Origin: Halovenus carboxidivorans
GTDB taxonomy: Archaea; Halobacteriota; Halobacteria; Halobacteriales; Haloarculaceae
Assembly: GCF_009831575.1 (NCBI RefSeq)
Contig: NZ_WUUT01000001.1
Span: 1 to 64,000 of the forward strand
DNA length: 64,000 nt
Reading direction: 5' to 3'
Shown: piece after piece, positions 771 to 28,028 of the stretch
Numbering within the stretch: position 1 is the first letter of the stretch
Layout: each line of letters begins with the position of its first letter
Made by a program: the position numbers and the translations under genes
The notes under the pieces: model-generated
The model's database searches: none
The model's input: the letters and a program-made list of their open reading frames with translations, nothing else
Told to the model about the DNA's origin: nothing

Positions 771-2429
771 ATGACAGATACGAACGAACGTTCTCAGGAC
801 ACGCCAGAGTCGGTCGATCCCGGCGGGGAAGACGCCGGTGTCAACCACAGTGACGATGACTCGTCCGCTCGCCCCAACCGTCGGACGGGAGAGGATCCGT
901 CCTCCACCGAGCCTGTCACCGACGGACGTTCCGAGCAGGTGGACGGGGGAGATCCGCCGCTCCCGGACTCCGAGACGGACGAGAAGCCCCCGGAATCGCG
1001 GATCGACGAGATGCTCCGGGAGGAGTCCTCCGAGGAGAAAGGCCCCTCCCGTGGACTGTTCGACGACCTCCTCTCGGGAGAACCGATCTTCGAGAAAAAG
1101 GAGGTCCTCAGGCCGTCGTACACTCCTCGAAAGCTCCCACATCGCGAGGATCAGATCAACAACATGGCGACGATTCTCGTCTCTGCCCTCCGGGGAGACA
1201 CTCCCTCCAACATCCTGATCTACGGGAAAACGGGGACCGGAAAGACCGCGAGTGCGAAGTTCGTCAGCGAGGAACTCGAATCCACCTCGAAGAAGTACGA
1301 GGTCCCCTGCGAGGTCGAGTACATCAACTGCGAGGTCACCGACACGCAGTACCGCGTTCTCGCACAGCTAGCCAACAAGTTCATCGAGAAGAATCGAAGC
1401 CGGATCGACGAGACCATCGACGAGTACGAATCCCTCCGCGAGCGCGCCCGCGAGGACTCCTCCGCACTGGCAGATACCGAGTTCGACTCCGTCGAGGAGG
1501 TCGACGAACGGATCGACTCCCTCGAATCCGAACGGGACTCGTTCAACGAGGTTCCGATGACCGGGTGGCCCACCGACCGCGTGTACAACTCGTTTTTCGA
1601 CGCGGTGGACTACCGCGAACGGGTCGTCGTGATCATGCTCGACGAGATCGACAAACTCGTCGAGAAGTCGGGCGACGACACGCTGTACAATCTCTCGCGG
1701 ATGAACTCCGAACTCGAACGCTCCCGGGTGTCGATCATGGGTATCTCGAACGACCTGAAGTTCACCGACTTCCTCGACCCCCGGGTCAACTCCAGCCTCG
1801 GCGAGGAAGAGATCGTCTTCCCGCCGTACGACGCCAACCAGCTCCGGGATATCCTCGAAGCCCGCGCGGACATCGCGTTCAAGGACGGCGCGTTGACCGA
1901 GGAGGTGATTCCGCTCTGTGCGGCCTTCGCCGCCCAGGAACACGGCGACGCCCGCCGGGCGCTGGATCTGCTCCGAACGGCGGGCGAACTCGCCGAACGG
2001 GACAACACGAACAACGTCGAGGAGGATCACGTCCGCGAGGCCCAGGAGAAGATCGAAATCGACCGCGTCGTCGAGGTCGTCCGTACCCTCCCCCAGCAGT
2101 CGAAACTCGTTCTCTTCGCGATCATCCTCCTGGAGAAACAGGGGGTCCACAACATCAACACCGGCGAGGTCTACAACATCTACAAGCGACTCTGCGAGGA
2201 ACTCGATACGGACGTGCTCACCCAGCGCCGAGTCACGGACCTGATCAGCGAACTCGACATGCTCGGCATCGTCAACGCCGTCGTCGTCTCGAAGGGCCGG
2301 TACGGCCGGACCAAAGAGATCAGCCTCTCGGTTCCACTCGAAGAGACGGAAGCGGTTCTCCTCTCGGATTCGCGACTCGGCGATATCGAGGACGTACAGC
2401 CGTTCGTACAGGCTCGATTCGATAACTGA
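771..2429 (+). CDS. orc1: Orc1/Cdc6 replication initiator
   Basis: AAA+ initiator of 552 residues that binds ORBs and loads the MCM helicase. The first ~110 residues are an acidic, low-complexity tail without a recognised domain. The AAA+ core follows, with Walker A GKTGTGKT near residue 151 and Walker B VVIMLDEID near 285. The last ~110 residues form the winged helix that contacts ORB DNA. The ATG at 771 is used: it lies 33 bases after the third origin box, and no upstream start is possible without running into the box. It is convergent with the regulator at 2479-3288. Family assignment is firm. The acidic N-tail makes it longer than the usual ~400 residues. Confidence 0.96.
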   Translation: MTDTNERSQDTPESVDPGGEDAGVNHSDDDSSARPNRRTGEDPSSTEPVTDGRSEQVDGGDPPLPDSETDEKPPESRIDEMLREESSEEKGPSRGLFDDLLSGEPIFEKKEVLRPSYTPRKLPHREDQINNMATILVSALRGDTPSNILIYGKTGTGKTASAKFVSEELESTSKKYEVPCEVEYINCEVTDTQYRVLAQLANKFIEKNRSRIDETIDEYESLRERAREDSSALADTEFDSVEEVDERIDSLESERDSFNEVPMTGWPTDRVYNSFFDAVDYRERVVVIMLDEIDKLVEKSGDDTLYNLSRMNSELERSRVSIMGISNDLKFTDFLDPRVNSSLGEEEIVFPPYDANQLRDILEARADIAFKDGALTEEVIPLCAAFAAQEHGDARRALDLLRTAGELAERDNTNNVEEDHVREAQEKIEIDRVVEVVRTLPQQSKLVLFAIILLEKQGVHNINTGEVYNIYKRLCEELDTDVLTQRRVTDLISELDMLGIVNAVVVSKGRYGRTKEISLSVPLEETEAVLLSDSRLGDIEDVQPFVQARFDN

Positions 2430-2478
2430 CCGATAAATATATCCAGTACTATCCGCCCTTCGTTTCTACTGGAGCGAC

Positions 2479-3288
2479 TCACTCCCCGGCGTCGACGACC
2501 TCGTAACTCACGTTCTGTTCTCTGAGTTTGTCGGTGTGTCGTGACAGCGCGTCCGTCGCGGCGAGCAAGAGCACGTCGAGACCTTTCGCAGCGGCTTCCT
2601 GGACGGCGTCGGGAGTCCCAAAGCGGATGTCGGGATCGAGTCCCGTCCGCTCCGCGAGCGCGACGGCCTCGGCGCCGGCCACGGCGACCAGGTCGTGTTC
2701 CTCGCCCAGTTCGACGACACGCTGTCCGTCGACGCTTTGACTCCCACCGTTCTGGACCTGTGGAATCGAGACGACGGCGACCGTCCCGAGGTCGTATTCG
2801 ACGACCCCCTCGAAGTTGGTGATCCCGACATCCGTCCCCGGCGTCGCGTCCGTCACCGCAACCGCTGTTGCTCCTCCGGTGTCGCCCGACATCGCCCGCA
2901 ACACACCGTCCTGCATCGTCAGCGAGACGGTTTCGCCCTCGCTGATCTCCGTCGAGGCGATTGCCGTCTCGGTTTCGACCTGTCCGATCACGTCCTCCGA
3001 GACGTGCGAGACGAACTCCCGGAGGCCGTCGGTCTGGGAGATGAGCCAATCGACGCCTTCCTTGGTCACCTCGTAGCGCCCCCTCCCGTGTTTGTTGACG
3101 AAGCCCTGTTCGACGAGGTCCTGCAGGTAGTCGCTGACCGCCTGTGCGGTGATCCCGATCGCGTCTGCAATCTCCTGTTGGTTGACCGCAGGCTGTCGTT
3201 CCGCAATCTCGACCAGGATCTGGTATCTGGTCGCCGTCCGCTTGCTTCGGAGCACCCCGAACTCTCCTGAATCCGTCTCCTTCGCCAT
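2479..3288 (-). CDS. Winged-helix transcriptional regulator divergent from the corrin operon
   Basis: A 269-residue protein. Residues ~20-85 form a MarR-like winged helix (QQEIADAIGITAQAVSDYLQ recognition region, then GRGRYEVTKEG wing). The remaining ~180 residues are an uncharacterised effector-like domain. The start is set at ATG 3288 (MAKETDSGEF). An upstream in-frame start would add 30 residues encoded by the promoter region. It is read divergently from cbiT, and the 148-base gap contains a perfect inverted repeat and AAG-rich half sites, so it is the obvious candidate regulator of the corrin operon and of itself. The effector (cobalt, a corrinoid, or something else) is unknown. Confidence 0.8.
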   Translation of the reverse strand: MAKETDSGEFGVLRSKRTATRYQILVEIAERQPAVNQQEIADAIGITAQAVSDYLQDLVEQGFVNKHGRGRYEVTKEGVDWLISQTDGLREFVSHVSEDVIGQVETETAIASTEISEGETVSLTMQDGVLRAMSGDTGGATAVAVTDATPGTDVGITNFEGVVEYDLGTVAVVSIPQVQNGGSQSVDGQRVVELGEEHDLVAVAGAEAVALAERTGLDPDIRFGTPDAVQEAAAKGLDVLLLAATDALSRHTDKLREQNVSYEVVDAGE

Positions 3289-3390
3289 TACCGAATCTCC
3301 GTGCCGAAAACGCAAGTAAGTTTTCACTAGTATCTGTCTACCTGCGAAATAACCCCCGCCCGGCGGGACGTAGAACAAACTTGCTTACTC

Positions 3391-3412
3391 TAAAACAACC
3401 AAAATTGTTTTA
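3391..3412. promoter_or_regulatory. Perfect inverted repeat at the cbiT promoter
   Basis: TAAAACAA (3391-3398), six bases CCAAAA, then TTGTTTTA (3405-3412): eight perfect base pairs. It ends 24 bases before the cbiT ATG. For a leaderless haloarchaeal transcript this is where BRE/TATA lies, so a bound protein would block transcription. Related AAG-rich half sites lie at 3312-3320 and, inverted, at 3380-3388, near the regulator's own promoter. Confidence 0.6.
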
Positions 3413-3436
3413 CGTCCTACGCGAGTTGTATATCCC

Positions 3437-4009
3437 ATGGCACACCCAGTGCTTCCACACGAGGCAAAGGCCGGCCCGACGAAAGCGGAGGTCAGGGCGG
3501 TGTTGCTTCGCAAACTCGATCTCGATTCGACCGACCACTTCGTCGAGGTCGGATCGTGTACCGGGGCCGTCACGATCGAGGCGGCCCGACGGGCCGGTCG
3601 GGTCACTGCGCTCGAACGGAAGAGCAATCGACTGGAAACGACCCGGAAGAACCTCGCGGCCAACGACGTCGACGCGGCGGTCGAACTCCGGCGGGCGGAG
3701 GCACCCGACGGACTCCCTCGGGACGCCGACGCGCTCTTTCTCGGCGGGAGCAGAAACTACGCCGAGGTTCTGGACCGCGCGGTCGAGACTGGCATCGACC
3801 GCGTCGTGATGAACGTCGCTCGACTCGAAGTCGCCGGGGAGGCGACGGAGGCGTTTCGTGACCGGGACCTGCTCGACGAGGTCGTCCAGTTCCAGGTCAG
3901 CCACGGCTACGAACTCGCCGGCGCGACGAGTTTCGACTCGGACAACCCGGTCTACATGCTCGTCGGGGGAGTCGGCGGGGACGACCAGGCCGCCGAGGGG
4001 GGAGCATGA
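3437..4009 (+). CDS. cbiT: Cobalt-precorrin-6B/7 C15-methyltransferase (decarboxylating), CbiT
   Basis: A 190-residue class I SAM-dependent methyltransferase that methylates C15 and decarboxylates the C12 acetate side chain of the corrin precursor. The SAM loop is VEVGSCTGAVTIEAA near residues 36-50. The family's usual GCGTG is GSCTG here. Conserved order and length match stand-alone CbiT, as in other archaea where CbiT and CbiE are separate genes. CbiE is encoded far away at 31902-32651. It is the first gene of the corrin operon, and its last four bases overlap cbiL (ATGA). Confidence 0.92.
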   Translation: MAHPVLPHEAKAGPTKAEVRAVLLRKLDLDSTDHFVEVGSCTGAVTIEAARRAGRVTALERKSNRLETTRKNLAANDVDAAVELRRAEAPDGLPRDADALFLGGSRNYAEVLDRAVETGIDRVVMNVARLEVAGEATEAFRDRDLLDEVVQFQVSHGYELAGATSFDSDNPVYMLVGGVGGDDQAAEGGA

Positions 4010-4923
4010 CGCTGTACGGCGTCGGACTCGGGCCGGGTGATTCCGGGCTGATCACCGTCCGGGGACGGGAACTGCTGGAGAGCGCGGATGTCGTCTACAC
4101 GCCCGGCCGACTTTCCCGTTCGGTCGCGACCGAGTACGTTCCGACGGACCGCCTCGGGGATCTTGACTTCCCGATGACCCGCGACGAGGACGAACTCCGC
4201 CGGGCGTGGAAGGCGGCCGCCGCCGAAATCGCTCCCCGAGCACGCGGGGGGACCGCGGCCTTCGTCACCCTCGGTGACCCGAATATCTACTCGACGTTCG
4301 GCCACCTCCGTCGAACGCTCGACGCGTTTCACCCCGAGGTCGATCTGGAACTCGTTCCCGGCGTGAGCGCGGTGACCGCGTTCACGACGGCGCTGGGGAT
4401 CGAGATCGCCGCGGGCGCGAGTCTCACCCTTCACGAGGCCTCCCGCGGGGCCGCACCGACCGGCCCCGACCGGATGATCCTGTTCAAAGTGACCGACGTG
4501 GCGGAGACCCACGAGGGACTGACCGACGCGGGCTACGAGGTGACCTACGGCCGGCGGCTGTACATGGAGGACGGAGAGACGGTCGTCACCTCCGATCCCG
4601 CCGACCTCGCGGACCGGGATTACTACACGCTCGCGTACGCGGAGAAGGAGGGACTCGACTCCACGCCGGCCACGGCCACCTTCGAGACGGCCGATACGCC
4701 GGAGGCGAGGACCGACGAGTCGGCGGACTCGACGCAGCCGAAACCCCGGACCGACGGCAACGGGATTTCGACTCGAACCGGCGAGACCGACAGGTCGGTG
4801 AGTCCCGGAGCGGCCGAACGATCCGACAGCTATCTCCAGCAGTCCCAGCGCGAGATCATCGAGATGGAGCGGGCGATCGGCGAGGCCTGCGGCGACGAAC
4901 TCCCGGAGGTGCCGCCGCGATGA
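4006..4923 (+). CDS. cbiL: Cobalt-factor II C20-methyltransferase, CbiL
   Basis: Tetrapyrrole methylase fold: the N-terminal GVGLGPGDSGLITVRG binds SAM, FVTLGDPNIYSTFGH is the second conserved motif, and ELVPGVSAVTAFTTALG the third. It adds the C20 methyl group to cobalt-factor II. The protein has 305 residues, about 70 more than usual. The extra part is a C-terminal Asp/Glu/Thr-rich linker ending in a short predicted helix (SYLQQSQREIIEMERAIGEA). The start overlaps the cbiT stop, and the stop overlaps the cbiF start. Confidence 0.93.
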   Translation: MTLYGVGLGPGDSGLITVRGRELLESADVVYTPGRLSRSVATEYVPTDRLGDLDFPMTRDEDELRRAWKAAAAEIAPRARGGTAAFVTLGDPNIYSTFGHLRRTLDAFHPEVDLELVPGVSAVTAFTTALGIEIAAGASLTLHEASRGAAPTGPDRMILFKVTDVAETHEGLTDAGYEVTYGRRLYMEDGETVVTSDPADLADRDYYTLAYAEKEGLDSTPATATFETADTPEARTDESADSTQPKPRTDGNGISTRTGETDRSVSPGAAERSDSYLQQSQREIIEMERAIGEACGDELPEVPPR

Positions 4924-5780
4924 CCGACCCCCAGCGGGCCATCGACGCCCGGGGCCGACGGCCCGCCACAGAGCGCGACGAGCGCATCGCCGAACACAGC
5001 GCAGGCGAGAAACAGGAGGGGATCCCCTTCATCGGGGCCGGTCCGGGCGACCCCGGACTGTTGACCGTCACGGGCAAGGAACTCGTCGAGGAGGCGGATC
5101 TCGTCGTCCACGCGGGGTCGTTAGTCAACAGCGACCTGCTGGAGCGGTACTGTGCCGACGCCGAACAGGTGACGAGCATCGGCAAGGATCTCGAAGAACT
5201 GGTCCCGCTGATCCGGGACGCGTACGAGGAGGGCCGGACGGTCGTCCGTCTTCACAGCGGCGATCCGGCTATCTACGGGGCCGCGGTCGAGCAGATGGAC
5301 GCCCTCGAACACGAGGGCGTCCCGACGTACATCGTCCCCGGCGTGACCTCTGCCTTCGCCGCCAGCGCGTCGCTGCGCACCCAACTCACCCTCAACGGCG
5401 TCGCCAACCACGTCGCCTTTACCCGTCCGCAGGGCAAGACCCTCGACCCCGAGGACGACCACATCGGCGAGTTCGTCGAGATGGGCGACGTGACGACCTG
5501 CATCTACCTCGGCACGCACGCGATTCCGGAGACGATGGATCGCCTGCTCGCCGAGGACCACGACCCAGACACCCCAGTTACGGTGGTCTATCACGCCTCT
5601 TGGCCGGACGAGGACATCATCGAAGGCACCATCGAAACCATCGGCGAGCGAGTCGAGGCGGCGGGGTACCGCGCCTCGGCGATGGTCATCATCGGCGATG
5701 CCGCTCGGAAGGCCGGCTACGACCGCTCGTATCTCTACGACGGCTGGGCGAACCGATCTTCAGGCGAGGCTGACGACTGA
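4920..5780 (+). CDS. cbiF: Cobalt-precorrin-4 C11-methyltransferase, CbiF
   Basis: A 286-residue tetrapyrrole methylase. Motifs are IPFIGAGPGDPGLLTVTGKE, the GSLV(N) loop, VRLHSGDPAIYGA and VPGVTSAFAASASL. The set, especially HSGDPAIYGA, is diagnostic of CbiF/CobM, which methylates C11 after ring contraction. About 35 extra N-terminal residues precede the fold. It overlaps cbiL by four bases. cbiG starts 1 base after its stop codon, so the two are surely cotranscribed. Confidence 0.94.
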   Translation: MTDPQRAIDARGRRPATERDERIAEHSAGEKQEGIPFIGAGPGDPGLLTVTGKELVEEADLVVHAGSLVNSDLLERYCADAEQVTSIGKDLEELVPLIRDAYEEGRTVVRLHSGDPAIYGAAVEQMDALEHEGVPTYIVPGVTSAFAASASLRTQLTLNGVANHVAFTRPQGKTLDPEDDHIGEFVEMGDVTTCIYLGTHAIPETMDRLLAEDHDPDTPVTVVYHASWPDEDIIEGTIETIGERVEAAGYRASAMVIIGDAARKAGYDRSYLYDGWANRSSGEADD

Positions 5781-5781
5781 C

Positions 5782-6774
5782 ATGAGCACTGACACAGACA
5801 GCGATACGACAGAATCGACGGACAACGACTCGGGCGGACACTGCTCGACACCCGACTCCGACGGCGAGGTGGCCGAGGAGATCGCGATCATCAGTTTCGA
5901 GCGGAAGATGGACACCGCGGAGGAGATCGCGGCCGAACTCGACGGGCAGTACGACCGGATCGACATCGTCGAGTACCACGGCGAGGTCTTCGCCGAGCAC
6001 TGGGGCGAGTACGACTGTTTCGTCGGGCTGATGGCTTCGGGCATCGCGATGCGCAAGACCGCCCCCCTTCTGGACGACAAGTGGGACGACCCCGCAATCG
6101 TCGTCATCGACGAGGCGCTGACCTGGGCGATTCCGATCACGGGCGGCCACCACGGCGCGAATCAGGTCGCACACGATCTCTCCCAACTCGGCGCGGTGCC
6201 GGCGATGACGACCGCAAGCGAGGCCGCAGGCAAGCAGGGCGTCGAGAGCAAGGCCAAGGCGCTCGACACCCACGTCGTCAACGGCGATTCGACGGTCGCG
6301 ACGAACCTCGCCGTGCTCAACGACGAACTCGGTCCCGTCGCACGACTGGACGGTCCCCGCGCGGTGCTGGTCGGCGACGACGTCACGGTACTGAAACGCA
6401 ACGGCGACGACGGCGTCGTCCTCGGGACAGGCACCGTTTCGGGTGTGGGCAAAGCCCAGGTCATCGACGCCTGGGAGCAGGCGCTCGCCGACCTCGATCT
6501 GACGCTTGCGGACGTGGATTTCGTCGCCACAGGCACCCGAAAGGAGGGCGAGGACGGACTCTACGAGGCCGCACAGGAGATCGGCGTCGGGGTCGTCCTC
6601 TTCGAGAAGGAGACCCTCGAACGGTTCGAGGGGCCCTCCGAATCGCGCTCGAAGGAGCTGATCGGCTGGCCGGGCATCGCGGAGGCGTCGGCCATCGCCG
6701 GCGGCCGCGAGCACGACCTCGCCCGCGAGAAGGAACGCTTCGACGAGGCGGTCACCGTGGCGGTGGGGCGGTAA
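5782..6774 (+). CDS. cbiG: Cobalt-precorrin-5A hydrolase, CbiG
   Basis: A 330-residue protein that opens the delta-lactone of cobalt-precorrin-5A and releases acetaldehyde, following CbiF. Recognisable parts are the N-terminal domain (AIISFERKMDTAEEIAAEL), the central IGLMASGIAMRK-type segment (here FVGLMASGIAMRKTAPLL) with the GGHHGANQ motif, and the C-terminal CobE-like domain (VATGTRKEGEDGL). The ATG at 5782 is preferred. An earlier in-frame start at 5698 would lie inside cbiF and translate cbiF DNA. The first ~30 residues are an acidic Ser/Thr/Asp leader. Confidence 0.93.
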   Translation: MSTDTDSDTTESTDNDSGGHCSTPDSDGEVAEEIAIISFERKMDTAEEIAAELDGQYDRIDIVEYHGEVFAEHWGEYDCFVGLMASGIAMRKTAPLLDDKWDDPAIVVIDEALTWAIPITGGHHGANQVAHDLSQLGAVPAMTTASEAAGKQGVESKAKALDTHVVNGDSTVATNLAVLNDELGPVARLDGPRAVLVGDDVTVLKRNGDDGVVLGTGTVSGVGKAQVIDAWEQALADLDLTLADVDFVATGTRKEGEDGLYEAAQEIGVGVVLFEKETLERFEGPSESRSKELIGWPGIAEASAIAGGREHDLAREKERFDEAVTVAVGR

Positions 6775-6775
6775 G

Positions 6776-7687
6776 ATGGCTGCCGACGAGTACGGACGGC
6801 TCTACGTCGTCGGAATCGGTCCCGGCCTGCCACACGACATGACACAGGAGGCCACGGATGTCATCTCCACGGCCGACTGTGTCATCGCCTCGAACCTCTA
6901 CCAGGAGTTTCTGCGCACCGACGGGACACTCCCGCCGGAGAGCGCCGCGATCGACGCGGCGACCGACGGCGGCACCGCCGCTGACCGGGCCGCCGAGTCG
7001 GCGCGTCCCGGCAGCGAGGACGGCACGATTCTCGAACGGCCCGACGGCAGCCGCCAGACGCTGATTCGCTCGTCGATGGGCCGTCAGATCGAACTCGCGA
7101 CGGAGGCCTTCGAGCGCGTCCGGGCCGGTCAGACCGTCGCCCACGTCTCCGGCGGCGATCCGAACGTCTACGGCAAGAGCGATCTGCTCTTTCTGATGGC
7201 CCAGGAGGAGGAGGCGACGGACGTTCCGATCGAAATCGTCCCGGGCGTCACCGCCGCACTCGGCGGTGCGGCCAACGTCGGCGCGCCGCTGTCGAACGAC
7301 TTCTGTACGATTTCGCTGTCGGACAAGTGGCGCGGCTGGGACGAAATCGCGGAGAAGCTCCGGGCCGCGGCGATCAGCGGTTTCGTCATCGTCCTGTACA
7401 ACTGCTGGCGCGATTACGAGCGGGCGATCGACGTCATCCGCGAGGAGCGGGCCGACGACGTACCAGTCGCCATCGTCAACGACGCCGGCCGCGGCGACGC
7501 CGGCCGCAACCTCGACGACGAGACGGAGACGTTCTGCCGACTGGACGAGGCGACGGAGCACGACGACGAGGTCGGCGGCATGGGCACCTCGATCATCGTC
7601 GGCAACCACGAGACCGAACGCTGGGAAAACGACTACGAACAGTTTCTCGTCACGCCCCGCGGCGGGCGTGACGTGGAGGATTTCTAA
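6776..7687 (+). CDS. cbiH1: Precorrin-3B C17-methyltransferase paralogue 1, CbiH-type
   Basis: A 303-residue tetrapyrrole methylase. YVVGIGPGLPHDMTQEA is the SAM-binding start, VAHVSGGDPNVYGKSDLL the second motif, and EIVPGVTAALGGAANVGAPL the third, all typical of the CobJ/CbiH ring-contraction methyltransferases. An insertion at ~residues 55-90 (Ala/Asp/Gly-rich) lengthens it over the usual ~240. It is one of two adjacent CbiH-type genes. In other haloarchaea both copies are also annotated as C17 methyltransferases, but whether both do the same reaction is not settled. Confidence 0.88.
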   Translation: MAADEYGRLYVVGIGPGLPHDMTQEATDVISTADCVIASNLYQEFLRTDGTLPPESAAIDAATDGGTAADRAAESARPGSEDGTILERPDGSRQTLIRSSMGRQIELATEAFERVRAGQTVAHVSGGDPNVYGKSDLLFLMAQEEEATDVPIEIVPGVTAALGGAANVGAPLSNDFCTISLSDKWRGWDEIAEKLRAAAISGFVIVLYNCWRDYERAIDVIREERADDVPVAIVNDAGRGDAGRNLDDETETFCRLDEATEHDDEVGGMGTSIIVGNHETERWENDYEQFLVTPRGGRDVEDF

Positions 7688-8772
7688 TGAGCACTGACAA
7701 CACCACCGAGACGACCGACGCGAGCACAGACACTGAGACGAACACAGACACCGAATCGAACTGTGGAGCGAGTAGCGCAGAAACCAGTACAGAGTCGAAG
7801 TGTGGGGCTAGCAGCGCGGACGCCGCAAGCTCCAGTACGGAAGTCGATACGAGCAGTACGGAGTCGAAACGCGGAGCGAGTTCGGAGACCGACAGCACCT
7901 CGAAATGCGGCGCTAGCTCCGACTCGGAGTCGTCGAGTTCCGGCTGTGGTGCGAGCGACGAGAAAGAGGTCGCCTCGACGGTCGAGGACTTCGACGCCGA
8001 GCCCGGACAACTCCTCGCGGTCGGACTCGGCCCGGGCCAGCCCGAGGGGATGACACAGCGCGCCCAGTCGGCGCTGCTCGACGCCGAGCACATCGTCGGC
8101 TACACGACATACGTCGATCTGCTCCCCGACGAGATCACCGACGACGCCGAGGAGATCTACGACACGCCGATGTGCGGCGAGGTCTCTCGAACGGAGGAGG
8201 CAATCGACCGCGCGCTCGCGGGCAACGACGTGGCGATCATCGGCAGCGGCGACCCGAACGTCTACGCGCTGGCGGGCCTGGCACTCGAAATCCTGGAATC
8301 GAAGGGCGCGACCGCGAGCATGGTCGACTTCGAAGTCGTCCCCGGCGTCCCGGCCGCCCAGTCCTGTGGCGCTCGACTCGGCGCGCCGCTTGTCAACGAC
8401 ACCGTCTCCATCTCGCTGTCGGATCACCTCACCGATATGCCGACAATCGAGTCCCGGTTGCACGCCGCCGCCAAGGAGGGGTTCACGATCACGGTCTACA
8501 ACCCCTGGAGCCGCAAGCGCCGGGAGAACTTCCGGAAGTGCTGTGAGATCCTGCTCGAACACCGCGACCCCGAGACGCCGGTCGGCGTCGTCCACGGCGC
8601 GGGCCGAGAGGACGAACAGGTCGAAATCGTCGACCTCGCCGACCTGGAGGAGTTGGGCGAGAGCGACCTGATCGACATGACGACGACGCTGGTGGTCGGT
8701 AACGAGGAGACGTACGTCTGGGACGACCGGATGGTGACCCCCCGCGGCTACGAATCCAAATACGACTACTGA
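7687..8772 (+). CDS. cbiH2: Precorrin-3B C17-methyltransferase paralogue 2, CbiH-type with CGAS-repeat tail
   Basis: A 361-residue protein. Residues ~1-105 are an acidic Ser/Thr-rich tail with five near-regular CGAS units (NCGASS, KCGASS, KRGASS, KCGASS, GCGASD), the third having Arg for Cys. The methylase fold begins with LLAVGLGPGQPEGMTQRAQ (about residue 112), followed by AIIGSGDPNVYALAGLALE and VVPGVPAAQSCGARLGAPL. The fold is clearly CbiH/CobJ-like. The tail has no counterpart in its neighbour cbiH1. The cysteines could bind cobalt, iron-sulfur or another metal, or cross-link (inference). It overlaps cbiH1 and the ferredoxin gene by one base each. Confidence 0.88.
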   Translation: MSTDNTTETTDASTDTETNTDTESNCGASSAETSTESKCGASSADAASSSTEVDTSSTESKRGASSETDSTSKCGASSDSESSSSGCGASDEKEVASTVEDFDAEPGQLLAVGLGPGQPEGMTQRAQSALLDAEHIVGYTTYVDLLPDEITDDAEEIYDTPMCGEVSRTEEAIDRALAGNDVAIIGSGDPNVYALAGLALEILESKGATASMVDFEVVPGVPAAQSCGARLGAPLVNDTVSISLSDHLTDMPTIESRLHAAAKEGFTITVYNPWSRKRRENFRKCCEILLEHRDPETPVGVVHGAGREDEQVEIVDLADLEELGESDLIDMTTTLVVGNEETYVWDDRMVTPRGYESKYDY

Positions 8773-9059
8773 TGACCACCAGCTACAAGATCCGACTCGA
8801 CCGCGGAGCCTGCGACGGTATCTTCGCCTGTCTCGTCCGGGACGACCGCTTCGCCGAGGCCGACGACGGACTCGCGACGATCGACGTCGACGGGATCACA
8901 CGCGACGGCGAGGTCCTAATCGCGACGCTTGAGGACGACCAGATCGAAACCGCGCGGCAGGCCGCGGCCGCCTGTCCGGTGGATGCGATCACTGTCACGC
9001 CGACGGCTGACCTCGACCAGCACTCGACAGCACAGCCGACGGAGGTGAGCGATGACTGA
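8772..9059 (+). CDS. Small ferredoxin of the corrin operon
   Basis: A 95-residue protein with a single-cluster pattern: Cys-x5-Cys in ACDGIFACLVRD near the N-terminus and CPVDAI near residue 68. Three visible cysteines in this spacing are typical of [3Fe-4S] ferredoxins. A fourth cluster cysteine is not evident. Its position between cbiH2 and cbiX suggests an electron carrier for a corrin-ring step, for example the reduction that CbiJ does elsewhere, or a redox partner of CbiH. That role is inferred. It overlaps cbiH2 (TGATG) and the next gene by eight bases. Confidence 0.8.
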   Translation: MTTSYKIRLDRGACDGIFACLVRDDRFAEADDGLATIDVDGITRDGEVLIATLEDDQIETARQAAAACPVDAITVTPTADLDQHSTAQPTEVSDD

Positions 9060-9753
9060 CGCCGCCCCGACTCCCGACCCAGTACCGGACCTCCTCGAAG
9101 CGCGGCCGGAGACGGCGTACTTCTGGGGTCGCGTCGCCGGCGACGGCGAACTGACCGACGAGGCCGTCACCGTCCGAGCGGGCGACGAGCAGGCCGCCGA
9201 CGCGCTCGCGGCACTCACCGGCGTCGACGATGTCGACCACAGCCAGACCGCACGCACCTCCGCCCACGACAGTTCCATCGTCCGGTACGACGACGAGTAC
9301 GAACTCACCGTCGTCGGCGCCCCGGCCGACCGCGCCAGCGCCGCGCTCGGACTCCCACAATCGGGGTCGCCCGGCGGCTACCGCTTCGGCGCGTTCAGCG
9401 AGCAGTACAGCCAACTGCTGCGCGGGATGCTCGAAGCCTGCGGGACGGTTTGTTTCCGCGAGTCCTCGGGCTCGGTCGGCATCTCCTTCGTCCACGACGA
9501 CGAGCAGTTCCTCGACACGGTCCGCGCGCTTTTGGACGACATCGGGCCACACGTTCCGACCGAGGACCTCGAAGACTCCTCCTCGGGCGGCTACTGGTTC
9601 AGCGTCGCCGACGACGCCGACATCGACGAGTTCGCGGCGTGGCTGTACGCGGGCAGCGACCAGACGGGGCTGTACGCCAGCGACCGGAGACAGAAGCTCC
9701 GCCGGAGCGTCGAGCGAGCGACCGGCAAGGAGACGGGTGAACTCTCGCCATGA
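9052..9753 (+). CDS. LAGLIDADG-fold-like protein of the corrin operon, function unknown
   Basis: A 233-residue protein conserved in haloarchaeal cobalamin operons, without an assigned function. It has two similar halves. Each starts with a helix resembling a LAGLIDADG motif: FWGRVAGDGEL at residues 24-34 and LLRGMLEACGTV at 122-133. Each is followed by beta strands and a helix carrying a DxxxADAL/FLDTVRALL-type pattern, then LYASDRRQKLRR near the end, as in homing endonucleases and WhiA-like proteins. The second acidic motif position is Cys, so nuclease activity is doubtful. There is no intein or intron around it. Overlaps on both sides (ATGA) place it firmly in the operon. Confidence 0.75.
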   Translation: MTDAAPTPDPVPDLLEARPETAYFWGRVAGDGELTDEAVTVRAGDEQAADALAALTGVDDVDHSQTARTSAHDSSIVRYDDEYELTVVGAPADRASAALGLPQSGSPGGYRFGAFSEQYSQLLRGMLEACGTVCFRESSGSVGISFVHDDEQFLDTVRALLDDIGPHVPTEDLEDSSSGGYWFSVADDADIDEFAAWLYAGSDQTGLYASDRRQKLRRSVERATGKETGELSP

Positions 9754-10976
9754 CCACGAACGCACCGGCTCCCGCGCAGTCGCTCGACGGCGAAGCGGTG
9801 CTGTTGGTCGGCCACGGCTCCCGCCGCGAGAAGTCCAACGAGCAGGTCCGCGACCTCGCCGCCACTCTGGAGGGGCGGTTGGGCGTCCCGGTCGACGCCG
9901 GCTTTCTCGAACTCGCCGAGCCGTCGATTTCGGAGGCGATCGACGGTCTCGCGGCGAGTCACGACCGCATCACGGTCGTCCAGCTCTCGCTGTTCGCCGC
10001 GAGCCACGTGAAAAACGACGTGCCGCTGGCCGTCGAGCAGGCCCGGGCCGAACGACCGGAGACGACCATCCACAACGGCGCACACCTCGGCGTCCACCCC
10101 GCAATCGTCGATTTACTCGACGACCGAGCGGCCGCCGTCGAGGAATCCCTCGGCGTCGACCGCGAGGACGAGGACGTGGCCGTCGTCCTCTGTGCTCGCG
10201 GGTCCAGCGACCCCGACGCCAACAGCGACGCGGCCAAACTCGCGCGACTGCTCTACGAGGGCCGGGAGTTCTCCAGCGTCGAAACTGCCTTCATCGGTAT
10301 CACCGATCCGGAACTCGAATCGCGGCTCCACACGGTCGCGAAGGATCGGCCGGACGCCGTCGTCGTCCTCCCGTACATGCTCGGAGACGGGGTGCTCACC
10401 CAGCGCGTGCGCGAGCACACCGACGAGTTCGACGCTGAGTACCCGTACGTCGCGGCCGCGGCGGGCGACCCGCTCGGCACGGACTCACGGCTGCTCGACG
10501 TGCTCGGCGACCGCTGGCAGGAGGCCCGCACCGAGAGCGTCCAGATGTCCTGTGACACCTGCAAGTACAAAGTCGAACTCGACGGTTACGAGGAGGATGT
10601 CGGCGGAGCGCGAGCGATGTTGCGCGCCCTGACTCACCAGGAGGAACACGCCGACCGGACGGACGTGGACGACGACCCCCACGTCCACGACGCGCCGGCC
10701 AAACACGTCGCCGTCTGTACGAACCAGACCTGCGCCGCCGACGGCGCGCCGGCCGTCCTCGAACGACTCCGTCAGGAGGCACGCGACTCCGAGGCCTGCG
10801 ACGCCCGGATCACCCGCACCTCCTGTCTGGGCCGCTGTGGCGAGGGGCCGATGGTCGCCGTCTACCCCGACGGCGTCTGGTACGGCGGCGTCGAGACCGA
10901 CGACGCGGCAGAGATCGTTTCGTCCCACCTCGACCGGGACCGCATCGTTTCTCACCTCGTAGACCAAACACTGTAA
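9750..10976 (+). CDS. cbiX: Sirohydrochlorin cobaltochelatase CbiX with C-terminal [2Fe-2S] ferredoxin domain
   Basis: A 408-residue protein. Two CbiX halves are visible: LLVGHGSRREKSNEQV (active-site His in GHGS) with FAASHVKNDVPLAVEQ, and a second half with CARGSSDPDANSDAAKLA. A CDTCKYKVEL segment closes the chelatase part. A His/Asp-rich linker (EEHADRTDVDDDPHVHD) leads to a thioredoxin-like [2Fe-2S] domain at about residues 320-366 with CTNQTC and CLGRC. It inserts Co2+ into sirohydrochlorin, the entry step of the early-cobalt pathway. The iron-sulfur domain's role is not known. Bacterial CbiX also often carries a metal-binding C-terminus. Confidence 0.92.
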   Translation: MTTNAPAPAQSLDGEAVLLVGHGSRREKSNEQVRDLAATLEGRLGVPVDAGFLELAEPSISEAIDGLAASHDRITVVQLSLFAASHVKNDVPLAVEQARAERPETTIHNGAHLGVHPAIVDLLDDRAAAVEESLGVDREDEDVAVVLCARGSSDPDANSDAAKLARLLYEGREFSSVETAFIGITDPELESRLHTVAKDRPDAVVVLPYMLGDGVLTQRVREHTDEFDAEYPYVAAAAGDPLGTDSRLLDVLGDRWQEARTESVQMSCDTCKYKVELDGYEEDVGGARAMLRALTHQEEHADRTDVDDDPHVHDAPAKHVAVCTNQTCAADGAPAVLERLRQEARDSEACDARITRTSCLGRCGEGPMVAVYPDGVWYGGVETDDAAEIVSSHLDRDRIVSHLVDQTL

Positions 10977-10977
10977 C

Positions 10978-11349
10978 ATGGCTTGCCACGAAATCGAAGC
11001 ACTACGACTCGGACTGATGAACGTTCTCGGCACCGAAGACCGCAGCGCCCGCGAGCACGCGATGAGCGAACTCGAAGGGCACATGACCGGCCCAATCGAG
11101 GCGCTCGCGGAGGCCGATACGCTCTCCGAGATCGAACGCCACCTCGACGCGGCGCTGGTCGATCTCGAAGAGGAGATCGCCGAGACCGACAGCGACGACC
11201 CGGAGTACGACTACCTGCGGGGCCGACTGGTCGCCGTTCGCGACGCCGAGCAGGCGGTCCGTCGGCTGACCAGCCAGGGCGAGTCCGTCCTCGACGGACT
11301 CGCGGAGGCCCACGACGTGCTCCACGAGACTTTCCCGGTCGATGAGTAG
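10978..11349 (+). CDS. Small helical protein, DUF3209-like, of the corrin operon
   Basis: A 123-residue protein starting MACHEIEALRLGLMNVLG. It is almost entirely alpha-helical and acidic, with no signal peptide or membrane segment. It resembles the DUF3209 family, which is found with cobalamin genes. The N-terminal CHE motif could bind a metal. It lies 1 base after cbiX and overlaps the next gene by eight bases, so it is cotranscribed. No function is established. A chaperone or cobalt-delivery role for CbiX is only a guess from context. Confidence 0.7.
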   Translation: MACHEIEALRLGLMNVLGTEDRSAREHAMSELEGHMTGPIEALAEADTLSEIERHLDAALVDLEEEIAETDSDDPEYDYLRGRLVAVRDAEQAVRRLTSQGESVLDGLAEAHDVLHETFPVDE

Positions 11350-12571
11350 CCTCGCGAACACGGTCGCACTCGACGAGGTCGATCCGGCCCGTTCCCGACA
11401 CGCCGGCCGGCGCTCGGCGGTGGCACTTGGCTCCGATGCGGTCGTCGTCGGGACCGCCGCCGGGACTGTCCGCGCCTTCGACCGCGATCCACTGGCCGAA
11501 CGATGGCGGGCAACGCCGGCCCCTGGTCGCGAGGAGGATCCGTCGGTCGTCTCCGCGGTGATCTGCGAGGGAACTGTGATCGTCGGCGAGCGGAGCGCGA
11601 CCGGCCACGTCCGCGGGTACGACCTCGCGACCGGGGAGCTATCGTTCCGATACGCGACGGCCGACGACATCGGCGCTCCGGCCGAGGAGACGCGGTTTTT
11701 CCTGCCGTTCGTCGTCGATATTCGGACGGACGGGGACCGAGCGTACGTCGCCGCTCGCCGTTACGAACGCGACGGCGGCGACCGCTCGTTCGAGAGCGTG
11801 ATCCACGCCCTCGATCCGGAGGGAACAGTTCGGTGGCGGTACCAAACCGACGCCTCCCCGATCAGCCTCGACGCGGCCGGAGACCGACTCGCAGTCGCGT
11901 ACAACCGCTGTCCCGGCGAGTACCAGCACGGACTGGTCCTGTTGGACGCGAACACGGGCAGCGAACGCTGGCACTGGGATCCGGGTACCGACGGCCAGCG
12001 CCGAGTCGGTGACGTTTCGCTGCTTGCCGACGGTCTCGCGCTCACGTCTCACGGCGACTACCGCGGGTACCGTCTCGACCCCGGCGGAGCGATCCGCTGG
12101 CGTGTCGATCTGGCAACGCCCCGAGAGATCGGTGGCGAGACGCTGTACGCCTACCCGAACCACGTCCACGCGAGCGACCACGGCGTGGCCTTCGTCACCG
12201 GAAACACGTACGCGGAACAGGGCCGTGACACTGACGGGCTCCACCCGGACGAACACACCGTCTTCGGCTACGCTCCGGCGGGCGGCCAGCGCTGGAAAGC
12301 CGACATCGGCGGTTTCGCCCACGGCCTCGCCGCTGACGCCGACCGGATCGCGGTCCCTTCCGCTCAGCACTTCCGAAGCCGTGATCCGGACGACCACGGA
12401 CTATCGACGTTCGACATCGGTGACGGCCCGCTCCAGGCCACGGAGACAGACGGTATCGTGACGGCGACTGCCGTCGACGGAAATGGAGTCGTCGGGGTCG
12501 AGGAGCCGGTCAGCTACCACGACGACGACCGGACCCACGGTCGGTATCGACTGCACGCACAGCCGGTGTGA
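11342..12571 (+). CDS. PQQ-like beta-propeller protein at the end of the corrin operon
   Basis: A 409-residue protein with repeated blades of the BamB/PQQ-like type: recurring W-x-x-x and LDANTGSERWHWDPG, GTVRWRYQTD, GAIRWRVDL and GQRWKADIGG segments, each following an L/V-D-x-x-G core. There is no signal peptide or lipobox, so it is probably cytoplasmic, unlike BamB. It begins eight bases before the end of the previous gene, which ties it to the corrin operon. In haloarchaea similar genes occur in cobalamin clusters. A scaffold or corrinoid-binding role is conceivable but unproven. Confidence 0.75.
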   Translation: MSSLANTVALDEVDPARSRHAGRRSAVALGSDAVVVGTAAGTVRAFDRDPLAERWRATPAPGREEDPSVVSAVICEGTVIVGERSATGHVRGYDLATGELSFRYATADDIGAPAEETRFFLPFVVDIRTDGDRAYVAARRYERDGGDRSFESVIHALDPEGTVRWRYQTDASPISLDAAGDRLAVAYNRCPGEYQHGLVLLDANTGSERWHWDPGTDGQRRVGDVSLLADGLALTSHGDYRGYRLDPGGAIRWRVDLATPREIGGETLYAYPNHVHASDHGVAFVTGNTYAEQGRDTDGLHPDEHTVFGYAPAGGQRWKADIGGFAHGLAADADRIAVPSAQHFRSRDPDDHGLSTFDIGDGPLQATETDGIVTATAVDGNGVVGVEEPVSYHDDDRTHGRYRLHAQPV

Positions 12572-12625
12572 TCGCTGCCGGCCCGAATCGCGGCTTTTGA
12601 ATCCCCCCACGTCGAACAGAAGGCA

Positions 12626-13261
12626 ATGACACTCGTTGCGTTCGATTTCGACGGGACGCTGTCGGACTCGGAGATGACGGTCCTGCTCGGTGAGCAGTGT
12701 GGGGCGGCCGACCAGATGGACGAGATCACCGAACAAGCGATGAACGACGAGATCGAGTACGCCGAGAGCCTGCGCAAGCGCTGTGCGCTGCTCGACGGAC
12801 TCCCCGAGGCCGACGCACAGGAGGCCTTCGATCAGGTCGTCCTCCGGCCGGAGACGGATGCCGTCGTCGAAGCGCTCGACTCGGCGGGCGTCTACACCGC
12901 GATTCTGACCGGCGGGTTCGAGCGCGGCGTCGAATCTGCACTCGAAACGGCGGGGGTCGACGTGGAGACGCTGATCGCCAACCGCCTGCCCGTCGAGGAC
13001 GGCGAACTGACCGGCGAGGTCGAGGGGCCGTTGATCGAGGGGACCAAAGACGACGCGCTCGATATTCTGACGACGGTCGTCGAGGAACCCATGGAGGAGA
13101 CCGTCGCCGTCGGTGACGGCGCCAACGACCTCCCGATGCTCGAAGCCGCCGGCTTCGCGGTCGGGTTCGCCCCCAAACCCGCGGTCGAACCGGCCTGCGA
13201 TGTCGTCGTCGAGTCGATGCCCGAACTGCTCGACGTGCTCGAAGACCGCGGCGTCTGCTGA
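12626..13261 (+). CDS. serB: Phosphoserine phosphatase SerB (HAD family)
   Basis: A 211-residue HAD hydrolase with motif I FDFDGTLSDSE at the N-terminus, motif II ILTGGFERG, a motif III Lys region (EGTKDDAL) and motif IV VGDGANDLPML. This matches SerB, which dephosphorylates phosphoserine in the last step of serine synthesis. Other small HAD phosphatases are possible. It begins 54 bases after the propeller gene, with a TATA-like CTTTTGA stretch at about 12594-12600, so it has its own promoter. The GIY-YIG gene follows without a gap. Confidence 0.85.
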   Translation: MTLVAFDFDGTLSDSEMTVLLGEQCGAADQMDEITEQAMNDEIEYAESLRKRCALLDGLPEADAQEAFDQVVLRPETDAVVEALDSAGVYTAILTGGFERGVESALETAGVDVETLIANRLPVEDGELTGEVEGPLIEGTKDDALDILTTVVEEPMEETVAVGDGANDLPMLEAAGFAVGFAPKPAVEPACDVVVESMPELLDVLEDRGVC

Positions 13262-21214: not shown

Positions 21215-22717
21215 CTACTCGCTCCACGGCTCTCCGAGCCCGAGCGCTCCCAGATCGACGTTGTCGGTGACGAGGTCGGCGGCCCGGTCGTACGGTGATC
21301 GGTCGTCCCGCCGAGCCTCGGGTTCCGGTCGGTTTCTCCCGGCGGCCTCGAACACCCGCTCGACGAACGCCGAGCGGGCGTTGTCGTTCTCGAACAGCCC
21401 GTGGACGTACGTTCCGAGCACCCGTTCCGTCCCGACACTCTCGCCGCCGAGCGGACGCTCGACCGACTCCGTCGGCGTCGACCGACCCATGTGGATCTCG
21501 TAGCCCGAGACTGTCCCCGAGCCACCGGCGAGCGGCCCGACGCCGGAGAGCGTCCGGGTCGTCCGTTCGAGACGCTTGTCGGCGGAAAACCGGGTTTCGA
21601 CCGGGAGTAACCCCACGGCTTCGACCGTCCCAGACACCGCCGTGCTCTCGATGCCGGCGTTCGTGATCCGCTCCCCGAGGATCTGAAAGCCCCCACAGAG
21701 GCCGACGATCGGTCCGTCGAACGCCCGAAGTCGGTCGTCGAACCCCGACTCCCGGAGCGCGAGCAGGTCGTCGACCGTGTTCTTCGAGCCGGGAACGACG
21801 ACGCCGTCGATCCCGGACAACGAGCCGTCGAGTGGCAGATAGACGACCCGAACGCCCGGCTCGCGGGCCAGCGGGTCGAGATCGGTGAAATTCGAGATCC
21901 GCGGCAACCGCGGGACGCCGACGTTGATCGTCCGCTCGTCGGCCACGTCGTCCCCGCCGACGACGCCGCGTTCGTCGCGGTCGGGGATGGAGATGCTGTC
22001 CTCGGCGGGCAGACCGGGGTCGTCGTACGGAATCACGCCCAGCACCGGCACTCCGGTTCGGTCTTCGATCTCCTCGATCCCCGGTTCGAGCAGGCTCCGG
22101 TCGCCGCGGAACTTCGTGATGACCGCGCCCGCGACCTGCCCGTGGAGTCGGTCGGGGAGCAGTTCGAGGGTGCCGTAGAGGCTGGCGAAAGCCCCGCCGC
22201 GCTCGATATCGACGACGACGAGTATCTCGGCGTCGGCGAACTCGGCGGTCTCGACGTTCGCGAGGTCGCGGTCGTGGAGGTTGATCTCCGCGATGCTGCC
22301 GGCTCCCTCGGCGACGATCACGTCGTGGTCGGCCGCGAGTCGCCGGTAGGAGTCGACGGCGGCCTCGCGAGCGCGCTCCCAGTGGTCGTCGTAGTAGTCG
22401 TCGACGCCGACGTGTTCGGTCGCCTCGCCCTGGATCACCAGTTGGCTCTCGCCGTCGCCCCGCGGCTTCAACAGCACGGGGTTCAGGTCCGTCGTCGGCG
22501 TGACCTCCGCCGCCGTCGCCTGGACGTACTGCGCGACGCCGATCTCCCCCCAGTCGCCCGACTGTGAGACGACGACCCGTGCGTTGTTGCTCATGTTCTG
22601 GGCCTTGTACGGCGCGACCGAGACGCCGCGACGGGCGAGTGCTCGGCACAACCCCGCTGCGACGGTGCTCTTCCCGACGTGGCTCGCGGTCCCCGCGATC
22701 AGCACTGTCTCGGTCAT
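21215..22717 (-). CDS. cbiP: Cobyric acid synthase CbiP
   Basis: A 500-residue amidotransferase that makes the b, d, e and g amides of adenosylcobyrinic acid diamide. The N-terminal P-loop [20 protein letters not shown] and [13 protein letters not shown] motifs are characteristic, as is the C-terminal glutamine amidotransferase domain with the Cys nucleophile in [11 protein letters not shown] and the partner His in [10 protein letters not shown]. Length matches the family. It is the last gene of the ten-gene operon that starts at 31141, nine bases after cobA. Confidence 0.95.
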
Positions 22718-22726
22718 GGTCTCCGC

Positions 22727-23410
22727 TCAGTACTCAGTTCCCTTCCGTGCGCTGTGGCCCGCGTCGAAGGGGTGGCTCTCCTTGGCGACGTTCGTGACGA
22801 GATCGGCCAGTTCGGTGACGTACTCGGGGCGGTCGTGTCCGCCGGTCAACACGAGTTCCAGCCCGTCGGGTTTCGACTCGACCAGGTCGACGACGTTCCC
22901 GGGGTCGACGAGCCCCCGGTTCGCGGCGTAGAGAATCTCGTCGAGGACGAGCATGTGGACGCCCTCTTGCGGTGGTCCGTCGAGCGCGAACGGCGAGTCG
23001 AGGTCGGCATCTCGGCAGCCGTCCAGTAGCTCGCGAGTCCGTTCGAGGGCACCCCGGGCCTGTGCGGCGTGGTCGTCGTCGTCGGAGCCGTCCCGGAAGC
23101 CGTGCCAGCCGTAGTGACCCGCGTTCTCGTAGCTAAAGCCCGGCATCGCGGTGATCGCGTTGTACTCCCCGCGGATCGACTCGACGCTGCCGGCGCCGCC
23201 TTTCATGAACTGGAGCATGTGTACGCGGTAGCCGTGGCCGGCCGCCCGGAAGCCCATCCCCATCGCGGCGGTCGTCTTCCCCTTCCCGTCGCCCCACCAG
23301 ACCTGTGTGAGTCCGAACTCCGCCGGCGCAGCGGGTTCGATCGGCTCGGGCGTCGGCCGCTGGTCGTCCGTCGATTCGTCCGCCGGTTCGCTGTCGTGTT
23401 CGTCTGTCAT
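22727..23410 (-). CDS. cobA: Cob(I)yrinic acid a,c-diamide adenosyltransferase (CobA/BtuR type)
   Basis: A 227-residue protein that transfers the 5'-deoxyadenosyl group of ATP to Co(I) corrinoids. The P-loop WWGDGKGKTTAAMGMGFRAA, the VHMLQFMKG strand and the later LDEILYAANRGLVD (Walker B-like) are diagnostic of CobA/BtuR. The first ~30 residues are an acidic haloarchaeal extension. The start codon overlaps the cbiZ stop by four bases, and it is followed closely by cbiP. Confidence 0.94.
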   Translation of the reverse strand: MTDEHDSEPADESTDDQRPTPEPIEPAAPAEFGLTQVWWGDGKGKTTAAMGMGFRAAGHGYRVHMLQFMKGGAGSVESIRGEYNAITAMPGFSYENAGHYGWHGFRDGSDDDDHAAQARGALERTRELLDGCRDADLDSPFALDGPPQEGVHMLVLDEILYAANRGLVDPGNVVDLVESKPDGLELVLTGGHDRPEYVTELADLVTNVAKESHPFDAGHSARKGTEY

Positions 23411-24123
23411 GAGTGCTCTCGTGGATCGAAAACGTCCGCGCGCTGGTCAGTTACGACGCCGTACCTCGCTGCCTCGACGGTTTCCGGTGGCTCGTCCTCG
23501 GCGTACCGCGCCTCGAAACCCGCTCGGATCGCCTCGCGGACGCAGGCTCGGGCCGCGGCGCCGACCTCGGTCGCGCTCCCGCTGAACTCGGCCTCCTCAC
23601 CGTCGACCGCGCTCCCGACGACGATTGCGTCCGTCGTCGTCCCGGTCACGCCGGCAACGTCGAGCAGCGTCGCGGTCTTCGCTTCGGCGACGACGCTGAC
23701 GAGATTCGCCTGCGCACCGTCTGTCAGCGACCGATCCGTTGCGACGATTAGATTCACCGTTCCGACCGACCCTGGGCCCGCTTCCGAGATATTTCCCTCG
23801 TGAGTCTCTTTCGGATCGGCCGGAAGCGTCGCCGGGTTCGAGAGGCCGACAGTGGCGTAGGCCACCACGGGGCCGAGTCGTGCGCCGCGGGCGTGGTTCA
23901 CGTCGACGCCGGTCAGCAGCGTCGGCCCGGACTCCCGGAATCCCGCCGCCTCGCGTTTTTCGCGGCTGTACCGGTCGATATCCTCGCGCTCCCAGCCCTC
24001 CGGCACGGTGATGTTGTACGCCGCCGGTGCGCGCTCGAACCCACCGCTGTAGCCGGTCGAGAGCCACCGCGCGCCGGGACGCCGAAGTCGGAACACGCCC
24101 TCGGTCACAGCCGGTTCATACAC
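23407..24123 (-). CDS. cbiZ: Adenosylcobinamide amidohydrolase CbiZ
   Basis: A 238-residue CbiZ-family protein. The archaeal CbiZ pattern is present: RWLSTGYSGGFERAPAAYN, LLTGVDVNHARGA and VVAYATVGLSNPATLP, ending VVVGSAVDGE and SATEVGAAARACVREAI. It cleaves the aminopropanol amide of adenosylcobinamide to adenosylcobyric acid, so imported incomplete corrinoids can be rebuilt. Together with cbiB, cobY and cobS this completes archaeal salvage. It overlaps both cobA (four bases) and the cobY-cobD fusion (eight bases). Confidence 0.92.
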   Translation of the reverse strand: MYEPAVTEGVFRLRRPGARWLSTGYSGGFERAPAAYNITVPEGWEREDIDRYSREKREAAGFRESGPTLLTGVDVNHARGARLGPVVAYATVGLSNPATLPADPKETHEGNISEAGPGSVGTVNLIVATDRSLTDGAQANLVSVVAEAKTATLLDVAGVTGTTTDAIVVGSAVDGEEAEFSGSATEVGAAARACVREAIRAGFEARYAEDEPPETVEAARYGVVTDQRADVFDPREHS

Positions 24124-27371: not shown

Positions 27372-28027
27372 CTCTCACCCCGCGCGAGCGGTCCGTCGCC
27401 GACGATCCAACTCGACCCGCCGACTTCGCTGATCCCCCCGTCGGTCTCCGGGTCGTCACCGATATGCAACAGCTCTCCGGTCTCGACGCCGAGGGCGTCA
27501 GCGACTGCGGTAAACGCGTGGCTGTCGGGTTTCCGCCAGCCGCAGTCGACGCTCGTCACGACGGCCTCGAACCGCTCTCGGTCGATTCCTGCGCTGTCGA
27601 GGGCGTGTTCGGCCAGTCCGGCGACGGCACAGTTCGAGAGCACACCGACCGGTCGCCGGTCAGTCAGGTACTCGAGCAGGCGCTCGGCACCCGGTCGGGG
27701 TTCGGCCTCGACGGCGAAGGCGGCCCGAACCGCCTCCGCGACGGTCGGCCGTATCTCCTCCCGACGGAGCGGTTCGTTTCGGCTCGCCAGCGCCGCTGCG
27801 ACGTGGTCTGCGAGCGGGAGTTCGCCCCCCTCTTTCACGTCGAGATGTGCCTCGCGGTAGGCTGTCGCCCAGTCGTCTGGCACGCTCACCCCCCGGGCGT
27901 CGAGTTCCCGCGCGACCGCCGCGGCGGGGTCGTCGGGCCGTTCGACGCTGACGAGCGTGCCGAACAGGTCGACGGAGACGGCCGCGCAGTCGGCCACCGC
28001 CGCCCGGAGAGCCGTCTCCCGGCACAT
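27362..28027 (-). CDS. HAD-family hydrolase of the cob operon, substrate unknown
   Basis: A 221-residue HAD protein. Motif I is SVDLFGTLVSVE, with the nucleophile Asp but Phe where phosphatases have the second Asp. Motif II is GVLSNCAV, motif III CGWRKPDSHAF with its Lys, and motif IV IGDDPETDGG. It starts two bases before the end of cbiA's intergenic gap and overlaps cbiB, so it is in the operon. Alpha-ribazole-phosphate phosphatase (CobZ/CobC) is not otherwise visible here and could be its role, but the DxF motif makes simple phosphatase chemistry uncertain. Confidence 0.75.
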   Translation of the reverse strand: MCRETALRAAVADCAAVSVDLFGTLVSVERPDDPAAAVARELDARGVSVPDDWATAYREAHLDVKEGGELPLADHVAAALASRNEPLRREEIRPTVAEAVRAAFAVEAEPRPGAERLLEYLTDRRPVGVLSNCAVAGLAEHALDSAGIDRERFEAVVTSVDCGWRKPDSHAFTAVADALGVETGELLHIGDDPETDGGISEVGGSSWIVGDGPLARGERWG

Positions 28028-28028
28028 C

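Follow-up and report, generated by a model that had tools for sequence, protein, structure and literature searches.

The window, by which we mean the whole stretch of 64,000 nucleotides analysed here, contains a corrin operon in the order cbiT-cbiL-cbiF-cbiG-cbiH-cbiH'-ferredoxin-LAG-cbiX-DUF3209-propeller (Table 1). LAG is used here as a short name for the LAGLIDADG-fold protein encoded at 9052-9753. Ferredoxin, LAG, the [2Fe-2S] form of CbiX, DUF3209 and the propeller are referred to as the accessory set. The LAG open reading frame shares 8 bp with the ferredoxin gene at its 5' end and 4 bp with cbiX at its 3' end. This confirms the operon membership that a preliminary description of this DNA had read from the gene overlaps. 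The same description had seen no mobile context, and the ORF is indeed intact, has neither intein nor intron and keeps its operon position in 80/80 loci. A dN/dS of 0.17-0.30 reveals purifying selection. LAG is a real, conserved haloarchaeal gene.

Table 1. Coordinates of LAG and of the surrounding corrin operon in the window
Feature	Position	Strand	Remark
Palindrome TAAAACAACCAAAATTGTTTTA	3391..3412	.	5' of cbiT; conserved, independent of LAG
cbiT	3437..4009	+	first gene of the operon
cbiL, cbiF, cbiG, first cbiH paralogue	4006..7687 (starts 4006, 4920, 5698, 6776)	+	
Second CbiH paralogue (CbiH')	7687..8772	+	Ser/Thr-rich N-terminal tail with CGASS repeats
Ferredoxin, 95 aa (Fer4_15)	8772..9059	+	directly 5' of LAG in 78/79 assessable loci
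LAG, LAGLIDADG-fold protein, 233 aa	9052..9753	+	ortholog by position of Hfx. volcanii HVO_B0055
End of first LAGLIDADG-like helix, FWGRVAGDGEL, residues 24-34	9121..9153	+	acid position D31
Second LAGLIDADG-like motif, LLRGMLEACGTV, residues 122-133	9415..9450	+	C130 at the catalytic-acid position
C130 codon	9439-9441	+	Cys replaces the catalytic acid
C134 codon	9451-9453	+	invariant
Basic C-terminal helix, residues 208-224	9673..9723	+	R212 and K215 invariant; sole strongly basic stretch of LAG
CbiX cobaltochelatase, long form	9750..10976	+	MSCDTC (MXCXXC) motif, then thioredoxin-like [2Fe-2S] C-terminal domain
DUF3209, helical protein	10978..11349	+	structural homologue of Thermus TTHB059
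PQQ_2-type beta-propeller	11342..12571	+	last gene of the accessory set

Several neighbours of LAG carry features of their own. In CbiX of the window, the [2Fe-2S] domain (about 10698-10922) stands where a His-rich tail would be. DUF3209 matches Thermus TTHB059, an undescribed protein of solved structure (PDB 2ehw), with Z 16.1 and 36% identity, and its invariant residues C3, E5, E7, H27, H55, H112 and H116 suggest a putative metal site. The N-terminal tail of CbiH' (window 7687-7990) has repeated CGASS and, in the homologues looked at, 2-5 Cys; it is possibly metal- or thiol-active. No Rfam elements are found in 2400-13000.

A second corrin cluster lies at 21215-40763. It encodes CbiP, CbiZ, CbiA and CbiC according to Pfam and, judged by sequence, cobA, cbiB, cbiE, cobN, a chlI/D-type chelatase and CbtA/CbtB-like genes. 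A [2Fe-2S] protein similar to the C-terminal domain of CbiX is encoded as a free-standing gene at about 40440-40706. Moreover, 30362-31141 encodes another CbiX-like protein of 259 aa (by Pfam CbiX), which we take to be perhaps the unassigned cbiX3 of Natronomonas, beside a DBI_PRT-like protein.

LAG has the fold but not the active site of a LAGLIDADG nuclease

The AlphaFold2 model of LAG (17 homologues; pLDDT 87.3, pTM 0.86) consists of two alpha-beta-beta-alpha-beta-beta-alpha halves. The LAGLIDADG helices, residues 19-31 and 113-130, lie at the interface and cover both motifs. Foldseek searches of the PDB with this model gave 14 matches at E<=0.001, all of them LAGLIDADG proteins (best E 3.1e-6), comprising inteins, a maturase, I-DmoI, I-SceI and WhiA. 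VIA-align gives Z 13.3 for PI-PfuI, 12.5 for I-DmoI and 11.6 for WhiA, and all 50 proteins among the matches listed are LAGLIDADG proteins. At the level of sequence profiles, the LAG family aligns with five homing endonucleases of haloarchaea (hhalign, E 9.3e-6), and both motifs fall in register. Pfam LAGLIDADG_3 (PF14528) matches the second half in 14/55 LAG homologues at E<0.01; a single homologue (L012, 24.8 bits) passes the curated cut-off of 22.5, and LAG of the window scores below it (14.8 bits, E 0.036). Searching the sequences of the PDB with LAG yielded chance matches only, NCBIfam no match and PHROGs weak matches only. The LAGLIDADG fold of LAG is strongly supported. The preliminary description had read this fold and its two helices from the sequence and had proposed structure prediction and Foldseek as a check; both helices are in place, and LAGLIDADG proteins are the best matches.

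Concerning the catalytic residues, position 130 is Cys in 89/90 LAG homologues. The preliminary description had noted this Cys in LAG itself and had concluded that LAG is not a typical nuclease. It had missed that the first acid is variable: position 31 is D or E in 63/90 homologues, so that this acid is lost in 30% of them. Five LAGLIDADG endonucleases of haloarchaea keep D/E at both catalytic positions; the loss in LAG is therefore not a halophile feature. Invariant or nearly so in the alignment of 90 homologues are C134, H72, R124, E128, S145, W182, F183, R212 and K215, and R68, R78 and H148 are also conserved. The hairpins that would face DNA have changed as well. Hairpin 165-188 contains 0.3% K+R in the LAG family compared to 17% in the haloarchaeal nucleases, and hairpin 131-150 contains 5% compared to 11%; hairpin 60-90 does not differ in K+R. 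To judge from these residues, LAG is a catalytically dead, domesticated nuclease and probably not a DNA binder.

Distribution of LAG and two types of corrin cluster

Of 194 haloarchaeal genomes with a completeness of at least 90%, 101 encode LAG, and all of these belong to the 105 genomes with CbiG. Including a further set of CbiG-bearing haloarchaeal genomes (LAG in 76/80), LAG is present in 177/185 genomes with CbiG and in 0/89 without. In the haloarchaeal set surveyed, LAG is thus confined to genomes that have the de novo corrin pathway. A relative is encoded in 146 stretches of a GTDB species set, of which we retained 80 LAG loci, haloarchaeal or on MAG contigs with the same cluster; the order ferredoxin-LAG-cbiX is kept in 78/79 assessable loci. 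A sample comprising 197 genomes from the phylum gave no match outside Halobacteria, and the plasmids encoding LAG are haloarchaeal ones only. One divergent homologue (31-34% identity; L117:7826-8422) lies outside a corrin cluster, among genes whose apparent products are two transporters of the CDF type and a rhodanese; the locus also has an intein-bearing dCTP-deaminase-like gene. In genome G044, LAG is flanked by two genes which, judged by sequence, encode cation-diffusion-facilitator transporters.

All eight CbiG-bearing genomes without LAG have a His-tailed CbiX. Seven of these (G043, G045, G060, G464, G511, G510, G552; four genera, four families) have clusters composed of cbiT-L-F-G-H-H' and a short CbiX, in which the MXCXXC motif is followed by a His-rich tail. 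On reading of the regions, ferredoxin, LAG, DUF3209 and propeller are absent from these seven clusters, and their CbiH' has neither the Cys-rich tail nor the CGASS repeats. Where LAG is present, CbiX bears the [2Fe-2S] domain and not a His tail in 81/82 complete cases. LAG and the His-tailed CbiX are hence anti-correlated. In trees of CbiG and of CbiX the seven LAG-less clusters fall on one side of a branch, and their shared features therefore amount to about one evolutionary event.

Two genomes represent events separate from these seven. The eighth LAG-less genome, G096, keeps the long CbiX, ferredoxin, DUF3209 and propeller; here a His-tailed CbiX (L116:11706-12644) fills the slot of LAG directly before the long CbiX. 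Locus L046 (H-GB1-1) has lost DUF3209 and keeps LAG beside a His-tailed CbiX, which means that LAG and His tail are not strictly exclusive. A strict link between LAG and the [2Fe-2S] form of CbiX is broken by L046 and G096.

Possible roles of LAG

The preliminary description had offered two roles: regulation in the manner of WhiA, with the palindrome 5' of cbiT as operator, and an enzyme or scaffold function in corrin synthesis. A regulatory role might appear attractive, since WhiA shares the fold, the nuclease-like domain of Mycoplasma WhiA binds DNA (PMC11701221), the C-terminal helix of LAG is basic and the palindrome is strongly conserved. In 69 LAG-bearing loci the TAAAACAACCAAAATTGTTTTA core shows 0-2 mismatches and in nearly all cases lies 40-44 bases 5' of cbiT; shuffled sequence almost never gets to 2 mismatches. 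The core is, however, equally present at -43/-44, with 0-2 mismatches, in 8/8 CbiG-bearing genomes without LAG, and it is therefore assigned to the operon promoter or to another regulator. A gene for a MarR-type regulator with DUF7839 adjoins cbiT divergently in the window. Furthermore, the domain search matched no HTH domain in LAG and its model ends in a single helix, and its saddle hairpins are acidic and nearly devoid of K+R. We consider a WhiA-like transcription factor very improbable and rejected it as the main reading. Of the likeness to WhiA drawn previously, the fold and the dead nuclease stand, and the regulatory role is not supported. The palindrome at 3391-3412 is kept in both haloarchaeal corrin cluster types. 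Even further from the data is the idea that the operon has captured a homing endonuclease which is active or was so until recently. Fold and motif similarity would fit it, but such an enzyme has an acid in each motif, basic DNA-binding hairpins and a location in an intein, an intron or a free-standing mobile gene. LAG has not kept the catalytic acids, its position is fixed without intein or intron, and its distribution is vertical-like and tied to CbiG. There is next to no chance of this explanation being correct.

The better half of the earlier guess is the role in corrin synthesis, which was said to be as yet undescribed. This agrees with the passages of PMC8305020 drawn upon here, where the Hfx. 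volcanii ortholog HVO_B0055 is 'function unassigned' and one of four cluster genes proposed as fillers of a pathway gap. The gap itself is already known (PMC6719526, PMC3403918 and the same passages of PMC8305020): in our searches CbiD is absent from 194/194 haloarchaeal genomes and CbiJ is above cut-off in 0/194. As a replacement, LAG would methylate C1 in place of CbiD or reduce cobalt-precorrin-6A in place of CbiJ, perhaps with the adjoining ferredoxin as electron donor, and its invariant Cys, His and Arg residues would suit an enzyme. Yet LAG is not present wherever CbiD and CbiJ are missing. The seven genomes with the short cluster have CbiG without any of the four candidates, and G043, G045 and G060 lack LAG though they are CbiG-bearing and devoid of CbiD and CbiJ in our searches. 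Since LAG-less genomes have the pathway with the same gap, LAG is probably not the missing enzyme, and we lowered this candidate. CbiJ is, in addition, absent from CbiG-bearing control genomes of Thermus, Sulfolobus and Methanosarcina; CbiH', a tetrapyrrole methylase found in both cluster types, is a simpler candidate for the C1 methyltransferase; and no SAM or nucleotide site is known for the LAGLIDADG fold. Replacement of CbiD or CbiJ thus appears distinctly unlikely. Somewhat better placed, though still on the unlikely side, is the idea that LAG structurally scaffolds or shields cobalt-corrin intermediates in aerobic life, with no specific role in cobalt insertion. Aerobic synthesis via the 'anaerobic' pathway is unusual (PMC3403918), LAG is co-inherited with Fe-S and Cys-rich partners, and a haem-copper oxidase is found in 81/81 tested LAG genomes and missing in 3/8 LAG-less ones. 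Those three represent two lineages only, however, and 5/8 LAG-less genomes have the oxidase. A strict aerobic link, to which the first three LAG-less genomes conformed, was weakened when four more had a haem-copper oxidase. A link between LAG and aerobic life is possible but incomplete.

Our preferred explanation, to which we assign a probability of about 0.4, is that LAG has been domesticated as an accessory factor that acts not on DNA but in cobalt insertion or in the early handling of cobalt-corrins. The His-rich tail of Bacillus megaterium CbiX-L has been proposed to store and deliver metal (PMC7689651). Because genomes without this tail have a Cys-rich and Fe-S set of which LAG is a member, we infer a role in cobalt handling, and likewise ligand, partner and step. 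LAG would serve solely the de novo (cobalt-early) corrin pathway of haloarchaea, in which it would act in an accessory capacity beside ferredoxin and the cobaltochelatase CbiX. Together with the [2Fe-2S] CbiX, DUF3209 and the Cys-tailed CbiH, it may supply, insert or protect cobalt, and the accessory set would stand in for the His-rich CbiX tail of the other haloarchaeal cluster type. The cleft of the former nuclease, with the pair C130 and C134 and with H72, R68, R78 and H148, is a putative site for cobalt or an anionic cobalt-corrin. That this cleft, bearing Cys for the catalytic acid, binds cobalt or cobalt-corrin, with LAG a core accessory to B12 synthesis in haloarchaea, is the more tentative part of the proposal. 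There is a precedent for a small ligand on a LAGLIDADG domain, as Mycoplasma WhiA binds ATP (PMC11701221). The flanking of LAG by genes read as cation-diffusion-facilitator transporters in G044 also speaks for cobalt handling. Against it speak L046, in which LAG and a His-tailed CbiX occur together, the grouping of the seven LAG-less clusters into about one event, and Thermus, in which DUF3209 and the [2Fe-2S] CbiX work without LAG.

LAG in comparison with known systems

The LAG family is also carried, in the same gene order, by seven Haloferax species other than Hfx. volcanii; HVO_B0055 is assigned as the ortholog on the basis of cluster order, and neither fold nor mechanism is given for it in the passages of PMC8305020 used. 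The findings bear on the open problem of B12 synthesis in aerobic haloarchaea, which follow the cobalt-early route although CbiD and CbiJ are missing. One haloarchaeal cluster type does without all four unassigned cluster genes, and the search for the gap enzymes therefore shifts elsewhere.

A [2Fe-2S] CbiX followed by DUF3209 is found in Thermus and Leptospira replicons as well. The corrin cluster of Thermus pTT27 shares this arrangement with the window and differs in that CbiD is present and both a LAGLIDADG protein and a ferredoxin are missing. The metal storage and delivery proposed for the tail of B. megaterium CbiX-L at cobalt insertion is the role that we suggest for the accessory set; that tail is a disordered part of the chelatase, whereas LAG is a separate folded protein.

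I-DmoI, PI-PfuI and the haloarchaeal intein nucleases have the fold and the two in-register motif helices in common with LAG. In contrast to these endonucleases, LAG has Cys as second acid, an unconserved first acid and no basic saddle, and is not associated with an intein or intron. Its closest counterpart in kind is WhiA (DUF199), a bacterial regulator of sporulation and cell division, which is likewise a nuclease-dead, domesticated two-domain LAGLIDADG fold (VIA-align Z 11.6 for 8dy7_I and 9.9 for 3hyi). WhiA has a C-terminal HTH and binds DNA, whereas LAG has no HTH, has acidic hairpins and is encoded in a metabolic operon; in the searches made here LAG, unlike WhiA, was found only in haloarchaea. 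The domesticated LAGLIDADG proteins in the literature searched, WhiA and yeast HO, all act on nucleic acid. If our reading is true, LAG would be a family of a vitamin pathway which has lost its DNA surface and exchanged an acid for Cys, and would widen the known uses of the fold.
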